From the NCBI RefSeq assembly GCF_000802205.1, contig NZ_CP012850.1, positions 2,356,001-2,420,000 of the forward strand: a stretch of 64,000 nucleotides of DNA. Reading direction: 5' to 3'. Within the stretch, counting starts at the first letter, position 1. Each line of letters starts with the position of its first letter. The translations under genes were made by a program, and so were the position numbers. Under the pieces are notes generated by a model. It was not told where the DNA came from and made no database searches. It was given only the letters and a program-made list of their open reading frames with translations. Source of the DNA: Candidatus Nitrosocosmicus oleophilus. GTDB taxonomy: Archaea > Thermoproteota > Nitrososphaeria > Nitrososphaerales > Nitrososphaeraceae. Below are positions 2,485 to 64,000 of this stretch, piece by piece.

Positions 2485-5400
2485 TCATCTTAATCTCCTT
2501 TGAGTCAATCTTTTGACAAGGTAGATTGAGAGGATAATAGACGTCAGAGCGATCAGCACGTAAACCGAAATCGAATCCGAAGAAAGAAAGTTAAAAGTCG
2601 TTTTAAGAAAATCCGCATCAGTATATAACTTAGACGAAGGGATCTTTTGCATTTCCCCATGTGCCTTAAAATTAGAAACTAATGTGTATAAATCGGATAG
2701 CTCTGAAGTGAATGAGACTGTTCCATTTAACATGCGGTCTTGTTTAGCGTTTATGAACTTTCCAAAATAAAAATCTTTGATAAAGATGTCTCCATTGATT
2801 TGCACAACAGGATGATTGACATACATTCCTATCTGCTGATCATTTAAATCAATTTTTGATATATTAGGAAATTCAAAATATTTGCCGTTAGAAACTCCTG
2901 TTATTGTAGAATTCTCAGGTATGATAGACACTGAAGAATCGTTAGAACCTTCGAATTGGATATTATTATACAAGCCCCTTCCATTACCTAATCTAAATTC
3001 ATCATTTCCCAGGACAGATACAGTATCGTAATCAGTGATTGATAAATCAGTAATATTGTTGAGCTTGTAAGAATTGTGGTTTTGTTCTAAAATAACTTCT
3101 GGATATGAATCATTTAACAAAATTACGGATGTTGAATTTATCACGATATTTCCTCGTCCCTTTATTTCTTGAAAAACATTTAGTCCATTTAGATCTATTG
3201 ATGGTTTGGTTGAATTCTCTAAAGGTAAGACACTCGAAATTTCTCTAATGACCTCCGAAAAGTCTTGTGATGAGATAGAATTGGTCAGATATTTAGTCAG
3301 AGTAGGATATATATCGAAATATGTTATCTTACCTTTGCCGATATGTTTTTCAAATACAGGGACTACGACTTTAGTGTTATTGATGGTTATAATAGACTTG
3401 ATGACATTGCCACCAAATATTGAAATCAAATCCTTGCTTTCTAAATCATTTTCAATCGAGTCATTATATTGAAGATTCATAGGCCTACCATTGCCACCAA
3501 ATATTGAAATCAAATCCTTGCTTTCTAAATCATTTTCAATCGAGTCATTATATTGAAGATTCATAGGCCTACCATTGCCACCAAATATTGAAATCAAATC
3601 CTTGCTTTCTAAATCATTTTCAATCGAGTCATTATATTGAAGATTCATAGGCCTACCATTGCCACCAAATATTGAAATCAAATCCTTGCTTTCTAAATCA
3701 TTTTCAATCGAGTCATTATATTGAAGATTCATAGGCCTACCATTGCCACCAAATATTGAAATCAAATCCTTGCTTTCTAAATCATTTTCAATCGAATTAA
3801 ATTCAACAGTATTATTGAGTAATTTGACTAGGGTACCATAGTCATAAGTGTTAAATATATATAAATTCCCCCCATTATTGAGATATTCCAGATATCTTTT
3901 TATCTTTGATTCTTTGAACATGCTAGAGTCTTTTCGACCATAGTCCTTAAAGTCTAAGTCCTTTACTCCATTGTACTCTAATCCTACGTAACCATTTTTA
4001 CCTAATGATTTATCATTAAATAAATGATATTTTGTACCATTTATGACCAAATAATGTGAACCATTTTGAATAATTAATTTCAATTCATAAAGAGATCCTG
4101 GGTTCCACTTTAAATTGGTCTTTACTCCGGGCCAAATAAATTCACCGCTCCGTTGACCATTCTCCACCTTATAAGAATTAACATAAATATCATCCTCCAA
4201 AAAATTGATACCTGTATATCTATAATTTCTATTATCCACAAATGAATAAATTAAGGAAACATAATTCGAGATATTCTTATTTAGACTATTAACATGGAAG
4301 GAAGTAGATAACTCAGTTAAATTTTCAGTGACTGGTTTTCTTATTATTATATTTTCGACCGCATTTGTATTTGTGCCCCCATGCAAGCTCTCCCCTGAAT
4401 AACTCCAATATCCTGAAATAACATTCCACTTATTCGAATAATTGTCAAGAGTAAAATTGTCAATGCTATGTGAAGAGAAATCAGGATCGTAACTTAACAG
4501 AATATTTTTTCCTTTAAACATTTGTGGATCTTGATCCAATTTTTCTGTATAGCTAAGATTACCCTTCTTGTTAAATATTTCATTTAGATACAACCACTGA
4601 TCATCCGAGAAAATAGTAGGATTAACAAGAGTTAGATTTGAATTCAATACGGGAGATGAACCCTTTGTGACATTAAATATCGTAACCACCCCGTTCGTGT
4701 AAATGATGGGTAATTTTGCAAGTAGATGACTTGACAGCCAGTCATCAGGAGATTGCTTTAGCAGAAAAGCATCTCTCTGGTGAAGATATAGATAACCATG
4801 ATCAAAACCATTTACAGAGAAGGAAAGCAGAGGAATGTTGGGATACAAAGCAGAGGTTATAATCTGCGGTATAGGAAAATTGTATGCAGGAGCAGTAAAA
4901 ACCATCAGCTCTCTTGACTGCGAAGTAGGAGCTATGACAAATGAGTATTTATCTTTACTCAATAATTCTCTAAGATAGTCAATAGCTTCTAATTCCTTTT
5001 CACTGATTTTCATACTATGAATATAGATATTCCAAAATTCAACTTGGAGCATTAATGAAGAGAATCCTAAAAGTACTAGTAACGAAATTGTAAATGCAAG
5101 AAGAGCGACGTATGGCAATCCCTTATCTCTAAATGACAAATAGTCACTAAGTTTGATCAAAGGTATAGGGGCGACTAGAGATGCGAAGAGGAAAGCAATC
5201 ATGATCAATCTCTGCTCATAGTAACCCGTAATTATCAGATTACTATTCAAAACGGAAATAACTTTGCCTATCAGGAACATGGTTAATATCATTAGTAAAA
5301 TGATTGTAAACCCGGATCTTTTTTCCTTAGACGAGTTCGAATAATGGTTTAAACTCAATATTGCCATTATTCCTACCACCCCAAATGCTATAGGGTAAAT

Positions 5401-7089
5401 GAACCAGGGTATGTAACCAGTTTCATTCACTGAAGATATATCAATAGAGTCAGTTGAAAGCCAGATTACTATGCTAACAATGTATATAAGGATGAGTGAC
5501 CACATCAACAAACTATAGAATCTATACTTTAGAGTGATATCCTTTATCGAAACTAACCTTTTTCTTAATTTTGGGGTAGTTCTATTTAGCTTTTGAATCA
5601 GGATGTCCGATATCTTGACTCTGTAAATGAATGCGAAGGTTAGCAGTAAGGGCATTGTGAAAAATATTAAAGATATTATACTAAATTGAGGAAATCGAAA
5701 ATCTCCTGTCATAACAACTGTTTCGGTTATCAAAAAAATGTCAGTTATAACGGTTCCTATTATACATCCTAACAATAGTCTTTCTAAATTCAATAATCTA
5801 GATGTAGTAGCAAAAGACAAGACAAAAATAAAGATCAAAAATGCTAATCCTTCCGATACATGAATTAAGTTTAAGGATAGGGTCAGTATGGAAACCATCC
5901 CAATAAATCTAAATCTTGATTGATCTCCAATTCTTAACAAGAGGAATAAGGCGATTAAAATTATGAAGGAAATTGACATGGGTGTAAAATAATGAAATGG
6001 TTGTAGAAAGATCGAACCTCCGAGCGCCTTTTCACCAACTAATTGGAATAAATCAAGATTGGTAGGATGTCCAGCTACTTTCAATGATAGAAAGTATAAG
6101 AATGTAAAATTGCTAAAAAATGAATATACAATTACTGACAGGGATGGAATCCTGTTATCAATCGTTGTAAGATATCTCTTGGACAGGGTATAAACTGACA
6201 AGGGTAGGACTAAGTTTATCACAATTTGAATAGATTGAATATCGGTAATCTTTTGACCAAGCCCCGAGAGGGTATGTAATGATGCACCGAACGCGTGGAA
6301 TAACAAATAATTAAATCCACTATATAAGTCGGGTGATTTTGATAAAATAATGAAGTTATGAAAATGCCTTGTAATATCCACATCTCTCATCATCGTTGCT
6401 TGTGGGTATAAAAGCCAGAATACAAAGCAAAAGAGGGTTACAGAAATCAGTATAGCATATATATCTTTGCCGTTAGATAGTGAGGAAATACTCAGGTCAA
6501 TCGACGTCAGTTTTCTTTGTTTTATGACAAAAATGATTCCAAGAATAATAAAAATTGAGCAAAGAAAAATAATTCGTGCATGTTCCTCTATGGGTAATAA
6601 GCCAAGGAGAGAAAACCCAGAAACAACAAAACTTATGATAACAGAAAAAAGTATTATTTCAAGCAAGGAAAGACTTTTTGAAATCCCGCTTAATCTAACG
6701 ATTGCATATCCTGGTAAAAAAGATACGCATGAAAAAGCCATGATCAATTGAATGTATTTTTGTTCGTAGTTTATGGAATTGAGAACTAAAATACAAATTG
6801 GAAATATAATGAGGAGTAGACCTAAAAATCTGTCAATATTGTTACTCTTATAGTTAGTTAGTGATTTTCTACTGACTCGGAAGAAGCGATGTAGTAAAAA
6901 TATATTTTCTGAGGTAGAATTTCTTAAGATAAAATAAACCAAGATAATAATTGACATTTCAAATACAAAAAAAGGATATTTTATCCATGATTCGATCAAC
7001 CATAGAGTGAATGCAGAAAATAAAACTGCAATTAGTGTAACGATTACAAAATCTTTTTTCTGAAATTTCTCGTCTATGGCTATATTCAT
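2485..7089 (-). CDS. Giant membrane-anchored envelope protein with laminin-G-like domain and tandem repeat
   Basis: The 1,534-residue product has three parts. Residues about 14-725 form many membrane helices. A long outer region follows, containing a laminin-G/concanavalin-like beta domain at about 885-1045 (motifs 'SGYWSYSGESLHGG', 'WPGVKTNLKWNPG', 'INGTKYHLF'), and then a segment beginning 'NNGGNLYIFNTYDYG' that resembles a class I glutamine-amidotransferase-like fold. This segment is interrupted by 4.6 exact copies of a 28-residue repeat (about 1099-1228). The outer part ends in a single membrane helix (about 1505-1525) and an Arg-rich tail. Many N-x-S/T sites fit an exposed glycoprotein. 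It lies 16 bases downstream of a GT4 gene, so the two are probably co-transcribed. The laminin-G-like part closely resembles the secreted protein at 16,203-17,321. Exact function is unknown; an envelope polysaccharide or glycosylation role is inferred from neighbours. Confidence 0.85.
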   Translation of the reverse strand: MNIAIDEKFQKKDFVIVTLIAVLFSAFTLWLIESWIKYPFFVFEMSIIILVYFILRNSTSENIFLLHRFFRVSRKSLTNYKSNNIDRFLGLLLIIFPICILVLNSINYEQKYIQLIMAFSCVSFLPGYAIVRLSGISKSLSLLEIILFSVIISFVVSGFSLLGLLPIEEHARIIFLCSIFIILGIIFVIKQRKLTSIDLSISSLSNGKDIYAILISVTLFCFVFWLLYPQATMMRDVDITRHFHNFIILSKSPDLYSGFNYLLFHAFGASLHTLSGLGQKITDIQSIQIVINLVLPLSVYTLSKRYLTTIDNRIPSLSVIVYSFFSNFTFLYFLSLKVAGHPTNLDLFQLVGEKALGGSIFLQPFHYFTPMSISFIILIALFLLLRIGDQSRFRFIGMVSILTLSLNLIHVSEGLAFLIFIFVLSFATTSRLLNLERLLLGCIIGTVITDIFLITETVVMTGDFRFPQFSIISLIFFTMPLLLTFAFIYRVKISDILIQKLNRTTPKLRKRLVSIKDITLKYRFYSLLMWSLILIYIVSIVIWLSTDSIDISSVNETGYIPWFIYPIAFGVVGIMAILSLNHYSNSSKEKRSGFTIILLMILTMFLIGKVISVLNSNLIITGYYEQRLIMIAFLFASLVAPIPLIKLSDYLSFRDKGLPYVALLAFTISLLVLLGFSSLMLQVEFWNIYIHSMKISEKELEAIDYLRELLSKDKYSFVIAPTSQSRELMVFTAPAYNFPIPQIITSALYPNIPLLSFSVNGFDHGYLYLHQRDAFLLKQSPDDWLSSHLLAKLPIIYTNGVVTIFNVTKGSSPVLNSNLTLVNPTIFSDDQWLYLNEIFNKKGNLSYTEKLDQDPQMFKGKNILLSYDPDFSSHSIDNFTLDNYSNKWNVISGYWSYSGESLHGGTNTNAVENIIIRKPVTENLTELSTSFHVNSLNKNISNYVSLIYSFVDNRNYRYTGINFLEDDIYVNSYKVENGQRSGEFIWPGVKTNLKWNPGSLYELKLIIQNGSHYLVINGTKYHLFNDKSLGKNGYVGLEYNGVKDLDFKDYGRKDSSMFKESKIKRYLEYLNNGGNLYIFNTYDYGTLVKLLNNTVEFNSIENDLESKDLISIFGGNGRPMNLQYNDSIENDLESKDLISIFGGNGRPMNLQYNDSIENDLESKDLISIFGGNGRPMNLQYNDSIENDLESKDLISIFGGNGRPMNLQYNDSIENDLESKDLISIFGGNVIKSIITINNTKVVVPVFEKHIGKGKITYFDIYPTLTKYLTNSISSQDFSEVIREISSVLPLENSTKPSIDLNGLNVFQEIKGRGNIVINSTSVILLNDSYPEVILEQNHNSYKLNNITDLSITDYDTVSVLGNDEFRLGNGRGLYNNIQFEGSNDSSVSIIPENSTITGVSNGKYFEFPNISKIDLNDQQIGMYVNHPVVQINGDIFIKDFYFGKFINAKQDRMLNGTVSFTSELSDLYTLVSNFKAHGEMQKIPSSKLYTDADFLKTTFNFLSSDSISVYVLIALTSIILSIYLVKRLTQRRLR
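3406..3795 (-). repeat. 84-bp exact tandem repeat, 4.6 copies, in frame
   Basis: Four full units plus a 54-base partial unit follow one another with a period of exactly 84 bases (starts at 3406, 3490, 3574, 3658 and 3742). Aligning them by eye shows no base differences between units until the array ends at 3795. Eighty-four bases is 28 codons, so gain or loss of units keeps the reading frame of the surrounding membrane protein. Each unit encodes an acidic stretch, 'SIENDLESKDLISIFGGN', followed by 'GRPMNLQYND'. Perfect identity, even at silent positions, points to recent expansion. Confidence 0.97.
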
Positions 7090-21095: not shown

Positions 21096-21893
21096 CTAAG
21101 GTGCCATAGGTTCTATGTCCGGTGAAAAGACTTCTAGAACTGCACTTGGTAGCGTTTGTGCAAAAGCCTGAGCCATTACATCCTTTTCTACATAGTCAAC
21201 AATAGGAAGTTGCTCAATTGATTCGATGACTTTATCATTTGGTACCTTGATTGTCAATCCGTTTATGACATTTTCATAAACTTGAAGAACTTCAATGTTT
21301 TGTGTGTCAGATTTTTTAGATAACATTGAAAAAAAGTCAGATACAGTCGTATCATCGTCCTTAAAAACAACAATATATTGCCCGGGGATTTCTTCGTCTT
21401 CAGAACCCATTGTATTTGAAAGAAAAGTAGATGGGGCGTCAGAATAATCACCGACCAAAGGTAAAGTATCTTGGAGTTCAAAGGGAGTTTTGCTGATCTT
21501 ATCAGTGTTATCATCTTCGTTACTATAAACCTGTGTCATCATATTCGCCGGAAAAGGGAGGGAGGCGGATCGAGATGAGGTAGTATCTTCATTGGACTGC
21601 CCATCGCTATCCCTGTTATGTGTAGTGTCTAGGTCAGAATCCATATTATCCTTCTTATCGTCTTCGTCGGCATTAAATTTAGGAATACTATTTGTAATTG
21701 CACCAAAGTCAATAATAGACGAACTGTCCTTCTTAGGAGAACTATTGTCAAAATTAAAATTAAGAAAAGGAATATCAGGCAAGCCTATGCTAAATGCGTC
21801 GGCTCTTTGAATGACGCTTGTACTCAAAATACTCAAAAGTACCAATAAAGATAAAAAGTATAATTTAGCATGTTGACGGCCTTTGCTATTCAC
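21096..21893 (-). CDS. Exported stand-alone peptidase-inhibitor I9 protein
   Basis: The 265-residue protein has a signal peptide (hydrophobic about 12-33), then a long Asp/Ser/Asn-rich linker, and a C-terminal domain from about residue 168: 'PGQYIVVFKDDDTTVSDFF', 'VYENVINGLTIKVPNDKVI' and 'LPIVDYVEKDVMAQAFAQT'. This is the inhibitor I9 fold, normally the propeptide of subtilisin-type proteases, where the last strand occupies the active site. Here no protease domain follows: the protein stops about 25 residues later. It may act as a separate inhibitor or chaperone of a secreted subtilase encoded elsewhere. No subtilase is present in the window. Confidence 0.85.
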   Translation of the reverse strand: MNSKGRQHAKLYFLSLLVLLSILSTSVIQRADAFSIGLPDIPFLNFNFDNSSPKKDSSSIIDFGAITNSIPKFNADEDDKKDNMDSDLDTTHNRDSDGQSNEDTTSSRSASLPFPANMMTQVYSNEDDNTDKISKTPFELQDTLPLVGDYSDAPSTFLSNTMGSEDEEIPGQYIVVFKDDDTTVSDFFSMLSKKSDTQNIEVLQVYENVINGLTIKVPNDKVIESIEQLPIVDYVEKDVMAQAFAQTLPSAVLEVFSPDIEPMAP

Positions 21894-22269: not shown

Positions 22270-22554
22270 TTATTGTTGACCTAATGCGTTGTTGCCGTCA
22301 TTTAAGTTCAATGACAAGGCTACGTTGTTACATGATGCAGTTGTATCGTTACCAGAACCACATCTTGATGATTGGAGTGTTTCTGTATCTTGAGCGATCC
22401 CTTGTGCTGCTTCATTAGATTTTTTCTTGTGTTTATCCCCATGGTGATTATCCCCACCTGCAAAGGCCATGTTATCACCAAATGTTGCTACTGAGCCAAT
22501 CAAAGCTGCTGCTATAAAGATTGACAAGATTGACAATTGAATTTTTTTATTCAT
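22270..22554 (-). CDS. Small exported His/Cys-rich peptide, copy A
   Basis: The 94-residue product has a clean signal peptide (MNKKIQLSILSIF..., cleavage near 'AFAGG', residue 32), then a His/Lys-rich stretch 'GDNHHGDKHKKKSNE' and a C-terminal part 'CGSGNDTTASCNNVALSLNLN' with two Cys (65 and 75) likely to form a disulfide. A second gene at 27,034-27,318 is identical at the base level over most of its length and 80 bases upstream, except for a 51-base block covering residues about 48-64. A TATA-like tattatataa sits about 22 bases upstream of the ATG. No family with known function was recognised. Confidence 0.8.
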   Translation of the reverse strand: MNKKIQLSILSIFIAAALIGSVATFGDNMAFAGGDNHHGDKHKKKSNEAAQGIAQDTETLQSSRCGSGNDTTASCNNVALSLNLNDGNNALGQQ

Positions 22555-22863: not shown

Positions 22864-22885
22864 GTTGCTTTTTTTTGATTTAATA

Positions 22886-25800
22886 TTGAACAAGAATTTC
22901 ATACTTGTGATTATTTTAATATTATCGGCAACCGTGTACATCAATTATTCAGTCTGGATTGACATATACGCACAAAATAACGGATCTGGGGATAATGATG
23001 AAAAAGACCCAGTTATCACTGTCCCGGCCAATCCAATAATCGCGGAAGCTACAGGACCACTAGGCTCCCTTGTTTCCTATAATGTTTCAGCAACAAATGC
23101 TACTGGGACCCCTATAGACGTTAGCTGTACACCACCAAGTGACAGCATGTTTGCCTTGGGAACTTCAACGGTAGAGTGTATCGCTATAGATGAAGCAGGA
23201 AATGATGCAAAGGCTTCGTTTGCAGTATTAGTTCAAGATACAACTCCACCTACAACCGAACTAGGAATTGTTAAGACAGGTTGGATGGGCATATTAATTG
23301 ACAATGATTCTACAAATTCTGATGATATTGGATTTGCCTTTACAGGTTCCGATCTTGTAGGTGTCAAAGGCTTTGAATGTAAACTGGATGATGGGAATTG
23401 GCGTCCAAGTACAATAGATTATCAGGAAACTGATAAAGCTGGGTGTTATTACATGAACGTCGAAGAAGGCCCTCATTCGTTTCAGGTTAGGGCAGTAGAT
23501 ACATCAGACAACAAAGATCCAAATCCACAATCCTTTTCATGGACAATCATATCTCTTGAAGATGCAATAGTTAATCTTCGTGATTTTGTATCGACAATAG
23601 TTATGCCTCCTAATTTGGAAGAAGAATTAATAGATTCGCTAAACAATGCGATTGGTAATATTCAGGATGATGGCAGCTACGACCATCTAATTTGCGAATA
23701 CCTAGATTCATTTAGTTATAGTTTTGCAAAGGCTTCTGTACTAGATTTGTTTAATCAAGACGTCACAAATTATGTAGATAACTCATTCACATCAATCAGA
23801 GACAGAACAGGTTGTAATCCACCAGTAGTGAGTCTAGAAAATGAGATCACAGTGGACGAGGGGGTCAAAGGTGTGATTTTGGATGCTTCTGGTAGCTTTG
23901 ACTCAAAGGATGGGAAAAATTTAGACTACGAATGGAGTCAAATCGCAGGTACTACAGTAGATTTGTCAAATATTTACAAGTCAAAGGCCTCCTTTGATGC
24001 CCCAATTCTTGAAGGCACTTCAAACCAAGTAGTATTTTTCAAAGTACAAGTAACTGACAAGAATGATCTATCATCAGAAAAAACTATCAAAGTGGTAATT
24101 CGAAATTTGGTACCGGTCCATGTTCCACCAGTAGCCGATGATCAGCGTGTGTCAGCAAATACGGCTGATCCTACAGAGATAACTCTCACAGCTACAGATC
24201 CAGGTGGTAATCCTTTGACATATTCCATAGTTTCACAGCCACAGTCAGGCACCATCACAGACCTTAACGAAGACACAGGTAGTTTGGTCTATACATCCAA
24301 TGCCGGATTTACAGGACAGGATAGATTCACATTCAAGGCCAATGATGGAACCGTCGACAGCAATACAGCCACAGTAAGAGTAACAGTGAACGCAGTCAAT
24401 GTTCCACCAGTAGCCGATGATCAGCGTGTGTCAGCAAATACGGCTGATCCTACAGAGATAACTCTCACAGCTACAGATCCAGGTGGTAATCCTTTGACAT
24501 ATTCCATAGTTTCACAGCCACAGTCAGGCACCATCACAGACCTTAACGAAGACACAGGTAGTTTGGTCTATACATCCAATGCCGGATTTACAGGACAGGA
24601 TAGATTCACATTCAAGGCCAATGATGGAACCGTCGACAGCAATACAGCCACAGTAAGAGTAACAGTGAACGCAGTCAATGTTCCACCAGTAGCCGATGAT
24701 CAGCGTGTGTCAGCAAATACGGCTGATCCTACAGAGATAACTCTCACAGCTACAGATCCAGGTGGTAATCCTTTGACATATTCCATAGTTTCACAGCCAC
24801 AGTCAGGCACCATCACAGACCTTAACGAAGACACAGGTAGTTTGGTCTATACATCCAATGCCGGATTTACAGGACAGGATAGATTCACATTCAAGGCCAA
24901 TGATGGAACCGTCGACAGCAATACAGCCACAGTAAGAGTAACAGTGAACGCAGTCAATGTTCCACCAGTAGCCGATGATCAGCGTGTGTCAGCAAATACG
25001 GCTGATCCTACAGAGATAACTCTCACAGCTACAGATCCAGGTGGTAATCCTTTGACATATTCCATAGTTTCACAGCCACAGTCAGGCACCATCACAGACC
25101 TTAACGAAGACACAGGTAGTTTGGTCTATACATCCAATGCCGGATTTACAGGACAGGATAGATTCACATTCAAGGCCAATGATGGAACCGTCGACAGCAA
25201 TACAGCCACAGTAAGAGTAACAGTGAACGCAGTCAATGTTCCACCAGTAGCCGATGATCAGCGTGTGTCAGCAAATACGGCTGATCCTACAGAGATAACT
25301 CTCACAGCTACAGATCCAGGTGGTAATCCTTTGACATATTCCATAGTTTCACAGCCACAGTCAGGCACCATCACAGACCTTAACGAAGACACAGGTAGTT
25401 TGGTCTATACATCCAATGCCGGATTTACAGGACAGGATAGATTCACATTCAAGGCCAATGATGGAACCGTCGACAGCAATACAGCCACAGTAAGAGTAAC
25501 AGTGAACGCAGTCAATGTTCCACCAGTAGCCGATGATCAGCGTGTGTCAGCAAATACGGCTGATCCTACAGAGATAACTCTCACAGCTACAGATCCAGGT
25601 GGTAATCCTTTGACATATTCCATAGTTTCACAGCCACAGTCAGGCACCATCACAGACCTTAACGAAGACACAGGTAGTTTGGTCTATACATCCAATGCCG
25701 GATTTACAGGACAGGATAGATTCACATTCAAGGCCAATGATGGAACCGTCGACAGCAATACAGCCACAGTAAGAGTAACAGTGAACGCAGTCAATGTTCC

Positions 25801-26587
25801 ACCAGTAGCCGATGATCAGCGTGTGTCAGCAAATACGGCTGATCCTACAGAGATAACTCTCACAGCTACAGATCCAGGTGGTAATCCTTTGACATATTCC
25901 ATAGTTTCACAGCCACAGTCAGGCACCATCACAGACCTTAACGAAGACACAGGTAGTTTGGTCTATACATCCAATGCCGGATTTACAGGACAGGATAGAT
26001 TCACATTCAAGGCCAATGATGGAACCGTCGACAGCAATACAGCCACAGTAAGAGTAACAGTGAACGCAGTCAATGTTCCACCAGTAGCCGATGATCAGCG
26101 TGTGTCAGCAAATACGGCTGATCCTACAGAGATAACTCTCACAGCTACAGATCCAGGTGGTAATCCTTTGACATATTCCATAGTTTCACAGCCACAGTCA
26201 GGCACCATCACAGACCTTAACGAAGACACAGGTAGTTTGGTCTATACATCCAATGCCGGATTTACAGGACAGGATAGATTCACATTCAAGGCCAATGATG
26301 GAACCGTCGACAGCAATACAGCCACAGTAAGAGTAACAGTGAATGAAGTTAGTACTCAGCCTGTGCCTAAGCCAGAATCTGAACCAGAGGTAGACAACTC
26401 ATCTGAGGATACCACACCTCCAACATCAACTAAAGATACCACACCTCCAACATCAACTAAAGACAGTAAACCTTCAACTTCCAAATCAACCGGTCTTAAC
26501 AGTACAAGCCTCAGCAGTGGCGGGGGCCTCTTTTCTGATGGATTTCCAGGGTTTACAGGTAATATGAAGAATCTATTTGGCAATTAA
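22886..26587 (+). CDS. Giant exported adhesin-like protein with eight identical cadherin-like repeats
   Basis: The TTG at 22886 gives MNKNFILVIILILSATVYIN, a signal peptide, and fits the TATA box 27 bases upstream; 1,233 residues result. Domains in order: a HYR-type beta domain (about 42-120), a Cys-containing beta domain (about 125-222), a helical linker, a PKD/REJ-like domain (about 312-405), eight copies of a 93-residue Ig/cadherin-like module (about 413-1153; motifs 'ADDQRVSANTADPTEITL' and 'TDPGGNPLTYSI'), and a Pro/Thr/Ser-rich tail with a duplicated 'DTTPPTSTK'. The module matches the tandem 95-type/Cadherin_4 class common in calcium-dependent surface adhesins. No membrane helix or sortase-like signal is seen at the C-terminus, so attachment is unclear. 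A cell-cell or cell-surface adhesion role is inferred. Confidence 0.9.
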   Translation: MNKNFILVIILILSATVYINYSVWIDIYAQNNGSGDNDEKDPVITVPANPIIAEATGPLGSLVSYNVSATNATGTPIDVSCTPPSDSMFALGTSTVECIAIDEAGNDAKASFAVLVQDTTPPTTELGIVKTGWMGILIDNDSTNSDDIGFAFTGSDLVGVKGFECKLDDGNWRPSTIDYQETDKAGCYYMNVEEGPHSFQVRAVDTSDNKDPNPQSFSWTIISLEDAIVNLRDFVSTIVMPPNLEEELIDSLNNAIGNIQDDGSYDHLICEYLDSFSYSFAKASVLDLFNQDVTNYVDNSFTSIRDRTGCNPPVVSLENEITVDEGVKGVILDASGSFDSKDGKNLDYEWSQIAGTTVDLSNIYKSKASFDAPILEGTSNQVVFFKVQVTDKNDLSSEKTIKVVIRNLVPVHVPPVADDQRVSANTADPTEITLTATDPGGNPLTYSIVSQPQSGTITDLNEDTGSLVYTSNAGFTGQDRFTFKANDGTVDSNTATVRVTVNAVNVPPVADDQRVSANTADPTEITLTATDPGGNPLTYSIVSQPQSGTITDLNEDTGSLVYTSNAGFTGQDRFTFKANDGTVDSNTATVRVTVNAVNVPPVADDQRVSANTADPTEITLTATDPGGNPLTYSIVSQPQSGTITDLNEDTGSLVYTSNAGFTGQDRFTFKANDGTVDSNTATVRVTVNAVNVPPVADDQRVSANTADPTEITLTATDPGGNPLTYSIVSQPQSGTITDLNEDTGSLVYTSNAGFTGQDRFTFKANDGTVDSNTATVRVTVNAVNVPPVADDQRVSANTADPTEITLTATDPGGNPLTYSIVSQPQSGTITDLNEDTGSLVYTSNAGFTGQDRFTFKANDGTVDSNTATVRVTVNAVNVPPVADDQRVSANTADPTEITLTATDPGGNPLTYSIVSQPQSGTITDLNEDTGSLVYTSNAGFTGQDRFTFKANDGTVDSNTATVRVTVNAVNVPPVADDQRVSANTADPTEITLTATDPGGNPLTYSIVSQPQSGTITDLNEDTGSLVYTSNAGFTGQDRFTFKANDGTVDSNTATVRVTVNAVNVPPVADDQRVSANTADPTEITLTATDPGGNPLTYSIVSQPQSGTITDLNEDTGSLVYTSNAGFTGQDRFTFKANDGTVDSNTATVRVTVNEVSTQPVPKPESEPEVDNSSEDTTPPTSTKDTTPPTSTKDSKPSTSKSTGLNSTSLSSGGGLFSDGFPGFTGNMKNLFGN
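24122..26343 (+). repeat. Eight exact 279-bp tandem repeats in frame
   Basis: Units start at 24122, 24401, 24680, 24959, 25238, 25517, 25796 and 26075. All encode the same 93 residues and look base-for-base identical, including silent positions, until the last unit diverges at 26,344. The array is within a surface protein gene; unit number is likely to vary between strains or be collapsed in short-read assemblies. Confidence 0.97.
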
Positions 26588-27033: not shown

Positions 27034-27318
27034 TTACTCTTGACCTAATGCGTTGTTGCCGTCATTTAAGTTCAATGACAAGGCTACGTTGTTACATGAT
27101 GCAGTTGTATCGTTACCAGAACCACATGATGAATCTTGACCAGTTCCTGAAAATTGTTCTAGATCTTGGAGTGCTTCGTTAGATTTTTTCTTGTGTTTAT
27201 CCCCATGGTGATTATCCCCACCTGCAAAGGCCATGTTATCACCAAATGTTGCTACTGAGCCAATCAAAGCTGCTGCTATAAAGATTGACAAGATTGACAA
27301 TTGAATTTTTTTATTCAT
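27034..27318 (-). CDS. Small exported His/Cys-rich peptide, copy B
   Basis: The 94-residue product shares its signal peptide, His/Lys-rich stretch and Cys-containing C-terminus with the gene at 22,270-22,554, and its upstream 80 bases are the same. Residues about 48-64 differ ('LQDLEQFSGTGQDSS' here against 'AQGIAQDTETLQSSR'), as does the final residue (Glu rather than Gln). The differing block is acidic-polar in both copies and has equal length. It closes the island whose centre is the giant adhesin. Function unknown. Confidence 0.8.
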   Translation of the reverse strand: MNKKIQLSILSIFIAAALIGSVATFGDNMAFAGGDNHHGDKHKKKSNEALQDLEQFSGTGQDSSCGSGNDTTASCNNVALSLNLNDGNNALGQE

Positions 27319-62449: not shown

Positions 62450-64000
62450 TTGAAATATACTCTTCATTCTAGATTTCGTATCTCGATTTGCGCTTCGTTT
62501 TGTTTTGTACTATTGGTGGTCAATAGCGTCATTCCAGTAAGTCTGCTTACTACTTCTTTTGGACAACAGTTTGAGCCGTCCTTGATTCAAATGCCCTTAG
62601 GTATATCTACCGAATTTGGGCTTCGCCAGGATGACGACAAAACTGCTCTGCATGATAACATTTTCGAAGGTTCTTCAGACATGTCCGCTCAGATCAGAGA
62701 TGAAAAAGAAATAAAGCAAGATAATATTGCATATGAGAGACAGGATATTGATTCTCAATCTGGGAATGTTAAGAATTTAGTTCAAGCTGATTCTGAAAGG
62801 GTTAGTGTAAAAGAACAGGATAATTATGAAGATGAAAAGCAGAATGGTCATCATGAAGATGAAAAACAGAATGGTCAGAATGGTCAGAATGGTCAGAATG
62901 GTCAGAATGGTCAGAATGGTCAGAATGGTCAGAATGGTCAGAATGGTCAGAATGGTCAGAATGGTCAGAATGGTCAGAAAAACATCAAAGGTCCTGTTAA
63001 ACTAAATTTTGTCGATTCGTACTGGACAAATAATATTGCTCCAGAAACTGTAGTTGCGAGTATTTCATCTGGTCAAGTAACTGCCCAGCAAATGCCACCT
63101 GTTCCTAGACAAGAAGTGGATCCCGCAGAAGGTAACTCAGTATTGGCGGTAACTATCATCAACCAAGGTTTTTCAGATATATCAGGGGTTAAAGGGTATT
63201 TTGACTTCCCAACTGGATTTAAAGCGTTAGTTACTCCTGATAATGTTGATTCTGATACAGCAATTTCCACATACAATGGTGTAGTAAAAGCTGGGCAATC
63301 ATTTGTTCTCTATTTCCCTGTAAGCATTTTGCAAAATACCCAAGTGGGAAAAGAGTATCAGGGACAATTGAAAATAAAGTATTTCAAATTGACTGAACAA
63401 TCTAAAAAGGATTTTAGAACAGCCAATATTGAGGTTCCATTTAGACTCTCTGGTAAAGTAATACTTGAAGTGCAGGGAAGTAACCAAAATTCAATCGCCC
63501 CAAATTCCAACGGGCAGTCCTCTCAATACCCCTTTTCGAATTCAGATATAATCAACGCAGTCGCTGGTACACCAAACACCCTAAAGATCGAAGTTTCTAA
63601 TCTGGGAAGCGCAAGTGCTACTGGAGTGATTGTAAATGTTTTGAATAACAATCAACAAATAACCAACGGCAATCAAGTTGTTGGGGCATCCAATTCAAGT
63701 ACTGCAAGTGACATAACCACCACCCAGGTTCCATACATAAATTTAGGTGACACAGTTTTTAATATTGGAACTCTATCACCCAATCAAAAATCTGAAATAG
63801 ACCCCATCATATTTCCGCCGGTTTCATCTGCAAACGCGATCCAAAATATCGAAATCAGAGTTTCATACAATGATGCATATGGCAACAAGAAAACAATTAA
63901 TCATTTGTTGGGAATACAGGTGGTACCTACATCTCCTCAAAATGATTTCTTTATTTCACCTGCCTCAAACGAAAAAGAAGCAATAATTCAAAACTTACCC
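62450..64000 (+). CDS. Secreted surface protein with Gln-Asn-Gly repeat (cut by window edge)
   Basis: From a TTG at 62450 the frame stays open for 517 codons to the edge; an in-frame stop nine bases upstream makes this the earliest start. Residues 1-38 form a signal peptide. A Glu/Asp/Gln/Asn-rich region follows, then twelve exact copies of Gln-Asn-Gly (62,867-62,974), and beta-rich domains from about residue 185 ('SVLAVTIINQGFSDISGVKGYF', 'APETVVASISSGQV', 'TLKIEVSNLGSASATGVIVN'). The latter look like the COG1361/CARDB class of archaeal S-layer or surface proteins. The C-terminus is outside the window, so anchoring is unknown. Confidence 0.82.
   Translation, partial: MKYTLHSRFRISICASFCFVLLVVNSVIPVSLLTTSFGQQFEPSLIQMPLGISTEFGLRQDDDKTALHDNIFEGSSDMSAQIRDEKEIKQDNIAYERQDIDSQSGNVKNLVQADSERVSVKEQDNYEDEKQNGHHEDEKQNGQNGQNGQNGQNGQNGQNGQNGQNGQNGQNGQNGQKNIKGPVKLNFVDSYWTNNIAPETVVASISSGQVTAQQMPPVPRQEVDPAEGNSVLAVTIINQGFSDISGVKGYFDFPTGFKALVTPDNVDSDTAISTYNGVVKAGQSFVLYFPVSILQNTQVGKEYQGQLKIKYFKLTEQSKKDFRTANIEVPFRLSGKVILEVQGSNQNSIAPNSNGQSSQYPFSNSDIINAVAGTPNTLKIEVSNLGSASATGVIVNVLNNNQQITNGNQVVGASNSSTASDITTTQVPYINLGDTVFNIGTLSPNQKSEIDPIIFPPVSSANAIQNIEIRVSYNDAYGNKKTINHLLGIQVVPTSPQNDFFISPASNEKEAIIQNLP
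62867..62974 (+). repeat. Twelve exact 9-bp repeats (cagaatggt)
   Basis: Twelve perfect copies encode (Gln-Asn-Gly)12 in a secreted protein. A related imperfect 30-base unit (gaagatgaaaagcagaatgg and similar) occurs twice just before. The period of nine keeps the frame, so the length may vary between cells. Confidence 0.97.

Follow-up and report, generated by a model that had tools for sequence, protein, structure and literature searches.

The stretch analysed here, referred to as the window, comprises 64,000 nucleotides of the genome of Candidatus Nitrosocosmicus oleophilus, an ammonia-oxidising archaeon of soil (contig NZ_CP012850.1, positions 2,356,001 to 2,420,000) and belongs to a single contig of 3,430,706 bp. 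On its forward strand, an open reading frame running from a TTG codon at 22886 to a stop at 26587 encodes an adhesin-like protein with a hydrophobic N-terminus followed by a series of modules; an alternative in-frame TTG lies 21 bases upstream, at 22865. The protein is predicted to be secreted. With about 1,233 residues, it hardly deserves the term "giant" that was applied to it in the original prediction.

All the modules lie on the forward strand. The first one is a HYR domain (PF02494; 22997-23233, residues 45-123), recognised with 26.4 bits against a cut-off of 21.7. It is followed by a conserved four-helix domain (23534-23818), modelled with a mean pLDDT of 88.7, and by a PKD-type domain (PF22352; 23843-24097, residues 327-411; 38.9 bits, cut-off 27). 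Then come eight tandem units of 279 bp (24116-26347) and a tail rich in serine, threonine and proline (26348-26521), in which Tandem Repeats Finder and sequence comparison revealed an exact 27-bp repeat of its own (26408-26463); this tail varies and repeats in other species too. The last segment (26522-26587) is a conserved C-terminal motif with an end of the type FSDGFPGF..NMKNLFGN, which is unique in the genome.

In the four-helix domain, 44 of 95 alignment columns were invariant among five sequences. An identity with a known helical adhesin domain, which we presumed it to resemble, was dropped, as a Pfam search up to an E value of 10 gave no family above its cut-off and the best fold match in the PDB was 2gsc, with an E value of 0.12 (TM 0.78). 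No known ligand-binding domain was found by Pfam, NCBIfam and fold searches among the HYR, four-helix and PKD modules, and no membrane anchor was recognised by Pfam, NCBIfam and inspection of the C-terminus. When the last 28 residues were compared with the own genome for a shared C-terminal sorting signal, only the gene itself was matched. Similarly, the C-terminus displayed neither a hydrophobic segment nor a sortase-type motif on reading, and no NCBIfam sorting-signal family was found. Archaeal anchors could nevertheless escape recognition, and the conserved C-terminal motif might itself be one.

In an exact self-comparison, 1,945 consecutive positions carried the same base as the position 279 bases further on, which gives a 279-bp period without a mismatch over 24120-26343 (2,224 bp, 7.97 periods). 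The base identity described for the eight modules was thus confirmed. Tandem Repeats Finder reported 8.0 copies of the same period at 24116-26343. In the register 24116-26347, units 2 to 7 are identical, whereas unit 1 differs by one base and unit 8 by two, all of these deviant bases being situated at the outer edges of the array. Each unit corresponds to one cadherin-like domain: all eight match Pfam Big_9 (PF17963; 394 bits for the protein, cut-off 23.6) and NCBIfam tandem-95 (NF012211; 391 bits, cut-off 90). A profile search of the whole genome gave eight Big_9 matches, which are precisely these units, so that the gene is the sole Big_9 gene of the genome.

As a background, the same exact-period test was applied to 20 evenly spaced 20-kb stretches of the own genome (400 kb, about 12%), in which the only hits were a CATC microsatellite and some short arrays whose units measure 24-45 bp. 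Since, the CATC microsatellite apart, no unit longer than 45 bp occurred in this sample, the array lies beyond chance and does not reflect a genome-wide habit. The CATC tetranucleotide tract extends over about 0.9 kb of the contig (approximately 965303-966214) with few interruptions, immediately downstream of the gene encoding a 554-residue protein predicted to be oxidoreductase-like. Two other exact repeats were observed in the window: an 84-bp unit repeated 4.65 times (3405-3795; 28 residues per unit), which sits in another gene encoding a predicted membrane protein of 1,534 residues (2485-7089, minus strand), and a 9-bp unit, cagaatggt, repeated 12.6 times (62867-62979), which reads Gln-Asn-Gly in one frame.

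In a structural model of 659 residues (mean pLDDT 72.3, pTM 0.30), the units were folded as cadherin-like beta-sandwiches. Due to the low pTM, the arrangement of the domains is unreliable and an extended rod is not demonstrated by the model; the beta region that follows the HYR domain is poorly predicted, and residues 89-192 of the first model (pLDDT below 50) were left uninterpreted. Structural comparison with VIA-align retrieved the EC19-21 domains of cadherin-23 (Z 12.8 over 271 residues) with an rmsd of 27.0, meaning that the chain of domains as a whole fails to superpose on them, and the collar protein of phage Milano (Z 11.7, 1.3 Å over 83 residues). A sequence search of the PDB up to an E value of 0.01 returned a single, marginal match, protocadherin-15 (E 0.0045). 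In cadherins, DxNDN is the calcium-binding linker motif between domains. This motif was not found at the unit junctions, which read NAVNVPP in the present species and NQVNQPP or NAVNSPP in others.

In order to follow the gene among relatives, its N-terminal part was used as a query against 70 genomes of the family, 15 of which, including the own genome, belong to the genus. An N-terminal orthologue was present in 10 of these 15 (E at most 3.7e-76); the five others, all drafts of about 120 to 720 contigs, gave no match or a weak one. Orthologues at 40-42% were also detected in four genomes of another genus (G046, G050, G051 and G052). In every species with at least two copies, the unit is always 279 bp long and in the same domain register. 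The number of units, which the original prediction held to be probably variable, does differ between species, each represented by one genome: eight in the own genome (G000), five in G007, three in G006, three in G008 (copy G008b), at least two in G005 (two whole units and a partial one beside N), and a single one in G009 and in G012. Units were left uncounted in G013 and G016, which contain stops or frameshifts, and in G018, where the contig ends inside unit 1. If the single units of G009 and G012 are real, the stalk would be dispensable there.

Short-read assemblies underlie some of the low counts, in which the array may be collapsed. G007, taken as N. franklandus C13, is reported as sequenced with MinION and Illumina, while N. 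exaquare G61, to which G008 fits, was put together from Illumina reads (paired-end and mate-pair), and N. arcticus Kfb, to which G006 fits, is reported as sequenced with Illumina and IonTorrent. Because of its long reads, the count of G007 is the most trusted among the relatives. The same data bear on the idea that the assembly multiplied what is really one unit or a few, or that consensus polishing made the units identical. Long exact repeats are indeed hard to assemble, and the break inside unit 1 in G018, the N in G005 and a damaged tandem copy in G008 recall this difficulty. However, G007 independently carries five units, and the own assembly resolves the CATC tract, which is hardly possible with short reads. 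Moreover, the array begins and ends cleanly and in frame, and assemblies usually err by collapsing repeats, not by multiplying them. An artefactual origin of the array is therefore very unlikely.

Two further observations concern these genomes. The damaged copy in G008 (G008a, L151 4462-8132) is a frameshifted tandem copy of the adhesin gene, with 1,275 aligned bases at 97%, and could be either a real duplication or a short-read scaffolding error. Elsewhere in the window, on the minus strand (21096-21893), a protein is encoded that has an I9 peptidase inhibitor domain (subtilase propeptide) without a catalytic domain; its relatives in G006 and G018 are longer and continue with the beginning of a subtilase-like sequence.

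The comparison of modules within and between genomes was then made on in-register units, the frameshifted G008a and the out-of-register unit 1 of G005 being excluded from both the identity range and the tree. Within a genome, the DNA identity of the units is 96-100% (minimum 0.957, in G008b), against about 64-88% between species. A maximum-likelihood tree built from 23 units grouped them by species in all five species with at least two units, with support of at least 99/97. Between G000 and its nearest species, G009, fourfold-degenerate sites differ at 68 of 146 positions in the N-terminal region and at 12 of 48 positions in the unit. Among units 2 to 7 of G000 there is no difference at all, synonymous sites included. 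These comparisons show that the tandem array is under concerted evolution. The claim of a recent expansion or active homogenisation is well supported by them: near-identical, species-specific units recur in five Nitrosocosmicus species, and in G000 the units lack the synonymous differences that separate it from its nearest neighbour.

GC-biased conversion was considered, as the array stands out by a G+C content of 45-46%. At third codon positions, the units of G000 have 34-36% G+C and the N-terminal region 30%. Since the corresponding values in the single-unit species span 24% (G009) to 46% (G012), this explanation found no clear support. Separately, the fourfold sites of the unit diverge about half as fast as those of the rest of the gene in four of seven species pairs (unit against N-terminal region, Fisher p 0.0006 to 0.011), the three other pairs being not clearly slower (p 0.064, 0.094 and 0.85). 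As the pairs share lineages, no conclusion is drawn from this slower divergence, for which codon constraint or interspecies exchange may be the cause.

Recombination has also left traces beside the array. The adhesin gene is flanked by two paralogues encoding a small secreted-type protein, one of 94 residues upstream (22270-22554) and one downstream (27034-27318), both on the minus strand. They have the same orientation around the adhesin gene, likewise in G006 and G009. Codons 1-47 of the two copies are identical in G000 (140 of 140 bases), which marks a conversion tract, and are 99% identical in G006 and 72% in G009; compared between G000 and G009, this segment reaches 75% for the upstream gene and 92% for the downstream gene. 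In contrast, codons 48-64 track position and not genome, with 55% identity within G000 and 92% and 86% to the G009 counterparts. This mosaic is of the kind left by gene conversion and shows that recombination is active at the locus. As direct repeats (92% over 387 aligned bases), the two genes could also mediate deletion or duplication of the adhesin gene between them. The small Cys-motif protein belongs to no Pfam family; a search of the own genome returned 63 matches, part of which are internal repeats of longer proteins.

These traces weigh on another explanation, according to which each lineage went through one recent burst of tandem duplication, with neither continuing homogenisation nor a functional variation in length, and with the unit count as a neutral by-product of slippage. 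The six inner units without any difference suit a single, very recent expansion, and slippage appears common enough here, given the unrelated exact 84-bp and 9-bp arrays of the window and the long CATC tract. Such a burst would, however, have to be recent and independent in each of the five species with at least two units, and it has to contend with the gene conversion documented in the adjoining genes and with the domain register common to all species. We consider it unlikely.

We favour a reading in which the protein is secreted, fibrillar and adhesin-like, with the array as its variable-length stalk, working in a Periscope-like manner, and hold this to be probable. Because the units are identical in DNA, misaligned units would recombine by unequal crossing-over, slippage and gene conversion. 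Recombination would keep adding, deleting and overwriting units, and this continual rewriting would leave every lineage with a uniform unit and a copy number peculiar to it. The number of units would in turn set the reach of the N-terminal HYR, four-helix and PKD modules. The protein would then be displayed at the cell surface and serve adhesion or aggregation, its length would be a selected trait, and the unit number would vary within species as well. The role in adhesion or biofilm put forward in the original prediction seems a fair inference.

The surface of the genus is compatible with such a protein. According to PMC11559005, Nitrosocosmicus has no S-layer genes and its wall measures about 18 nm; MY3 and N. 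franklandus bear thin, hair-like structures given as about 30 nm, without mention of whether this is a length or a width. Type IV pili are likewise reported as absent from the genus (PMC7554672), and aggregates of N. arcticus as resistant to sonication (PMC6657660). A secreted stalk of tandem domains fits this surface. It also fits a structural protein of the envelope or matrix, in which the stalk would stand in a glycocalyx-like coat and its length would be unrelated to reaching a ligand, the stalk mechanics being those of the favoured reading. The missing S-layer, together with the wall and the hairs, is in keeping with a coat protein, as are Big_9, HYR and PKD domains, which are generic spacers accompanied by no identified binding domain. 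On the other side, a clear orthologue is absent from five of the 15 genomes of the genus, the genome has just one Big_9 gene, and no lattice-forming or anchoring signature was seen in the protein. A purely structural role is possible, at a rather low probability.

As the genus has hair-like filaments in the place of an S-layer and type IV pili, the adhesin-like protein is a candidate filament component. Ig-like domains are spaced by about 4 nm. Eight of them would amount to roughly 30-35 nm, and it is tempting to see in the protein the main component of the hairs of about 30 nm, with recombination in the array tuning both filament reach and aggregation. A simple ruler is countered by N. franklandus, which has similar hairs and a copy with five units (G007), and we regard this proposal as improbable. 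If it were true, a Periscope-type surface system of variable length would exist in archaea. On the favoured reading, the length-variation mechanism of bacterial adhesins would be extended to a genus of ammonia-oxidising archaea with a poorly understood surface. The array would offer a simple marker, testable by PCR, of surface variation in strongly aggregating cultures. Furthermore, the adhesin gene is probably broken or collapsed in Nitrosocosmicus assemblies made from short reads. In the literature covered, from which most subscription papers, including the MY3 description, were missing, no report on this gene or on length variation of tandem domains in Nitrosocosmicus was found.

Among known systems, cadherin ectodomains share the fold of the units, as seen with cadherin-23, but the units lack the calcium linker of classical cadherins and resemble them only marginally in sequence. 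In the concerted evolution of prokaryotic paralogous genes (PMC6053082), copies are likewise reported to be closer within a species than orthologues are between species; here, however, the copies are domains of one gene and their number changes. The protein is a member of the known tandem-95/Big_9 repeat proteins (NF012211, PF17963), its eight tandem stretches scoring far above the curated cut-offs, and stands apart by the identity of its units at the base level and by an N-terminal architecture specific to the genus; its interest lies in being an archaeal, genus-wide case. The closest parallel is found in the Periscope Proteins (SasG, Aap, Rib, Sgo_0707, CdrA; Whelan et al. 2021, PMC8201768), a model in which identity among the repeats causes the length to change and the length determines how far the protein reaches; that paper does not mention archaea. 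As in these proteins, a surface-type protein carries folded domains that are highly identical and arranged in tandem, the number of domains differs between relatives, a high DNA identity permits recombination, and the rule that adjacent domains diverge is broken. Unlike them, the present protein is archaeal, no wall-attachment motif or ligand-binding domain was recognised in it, and its variation is seen only between species.
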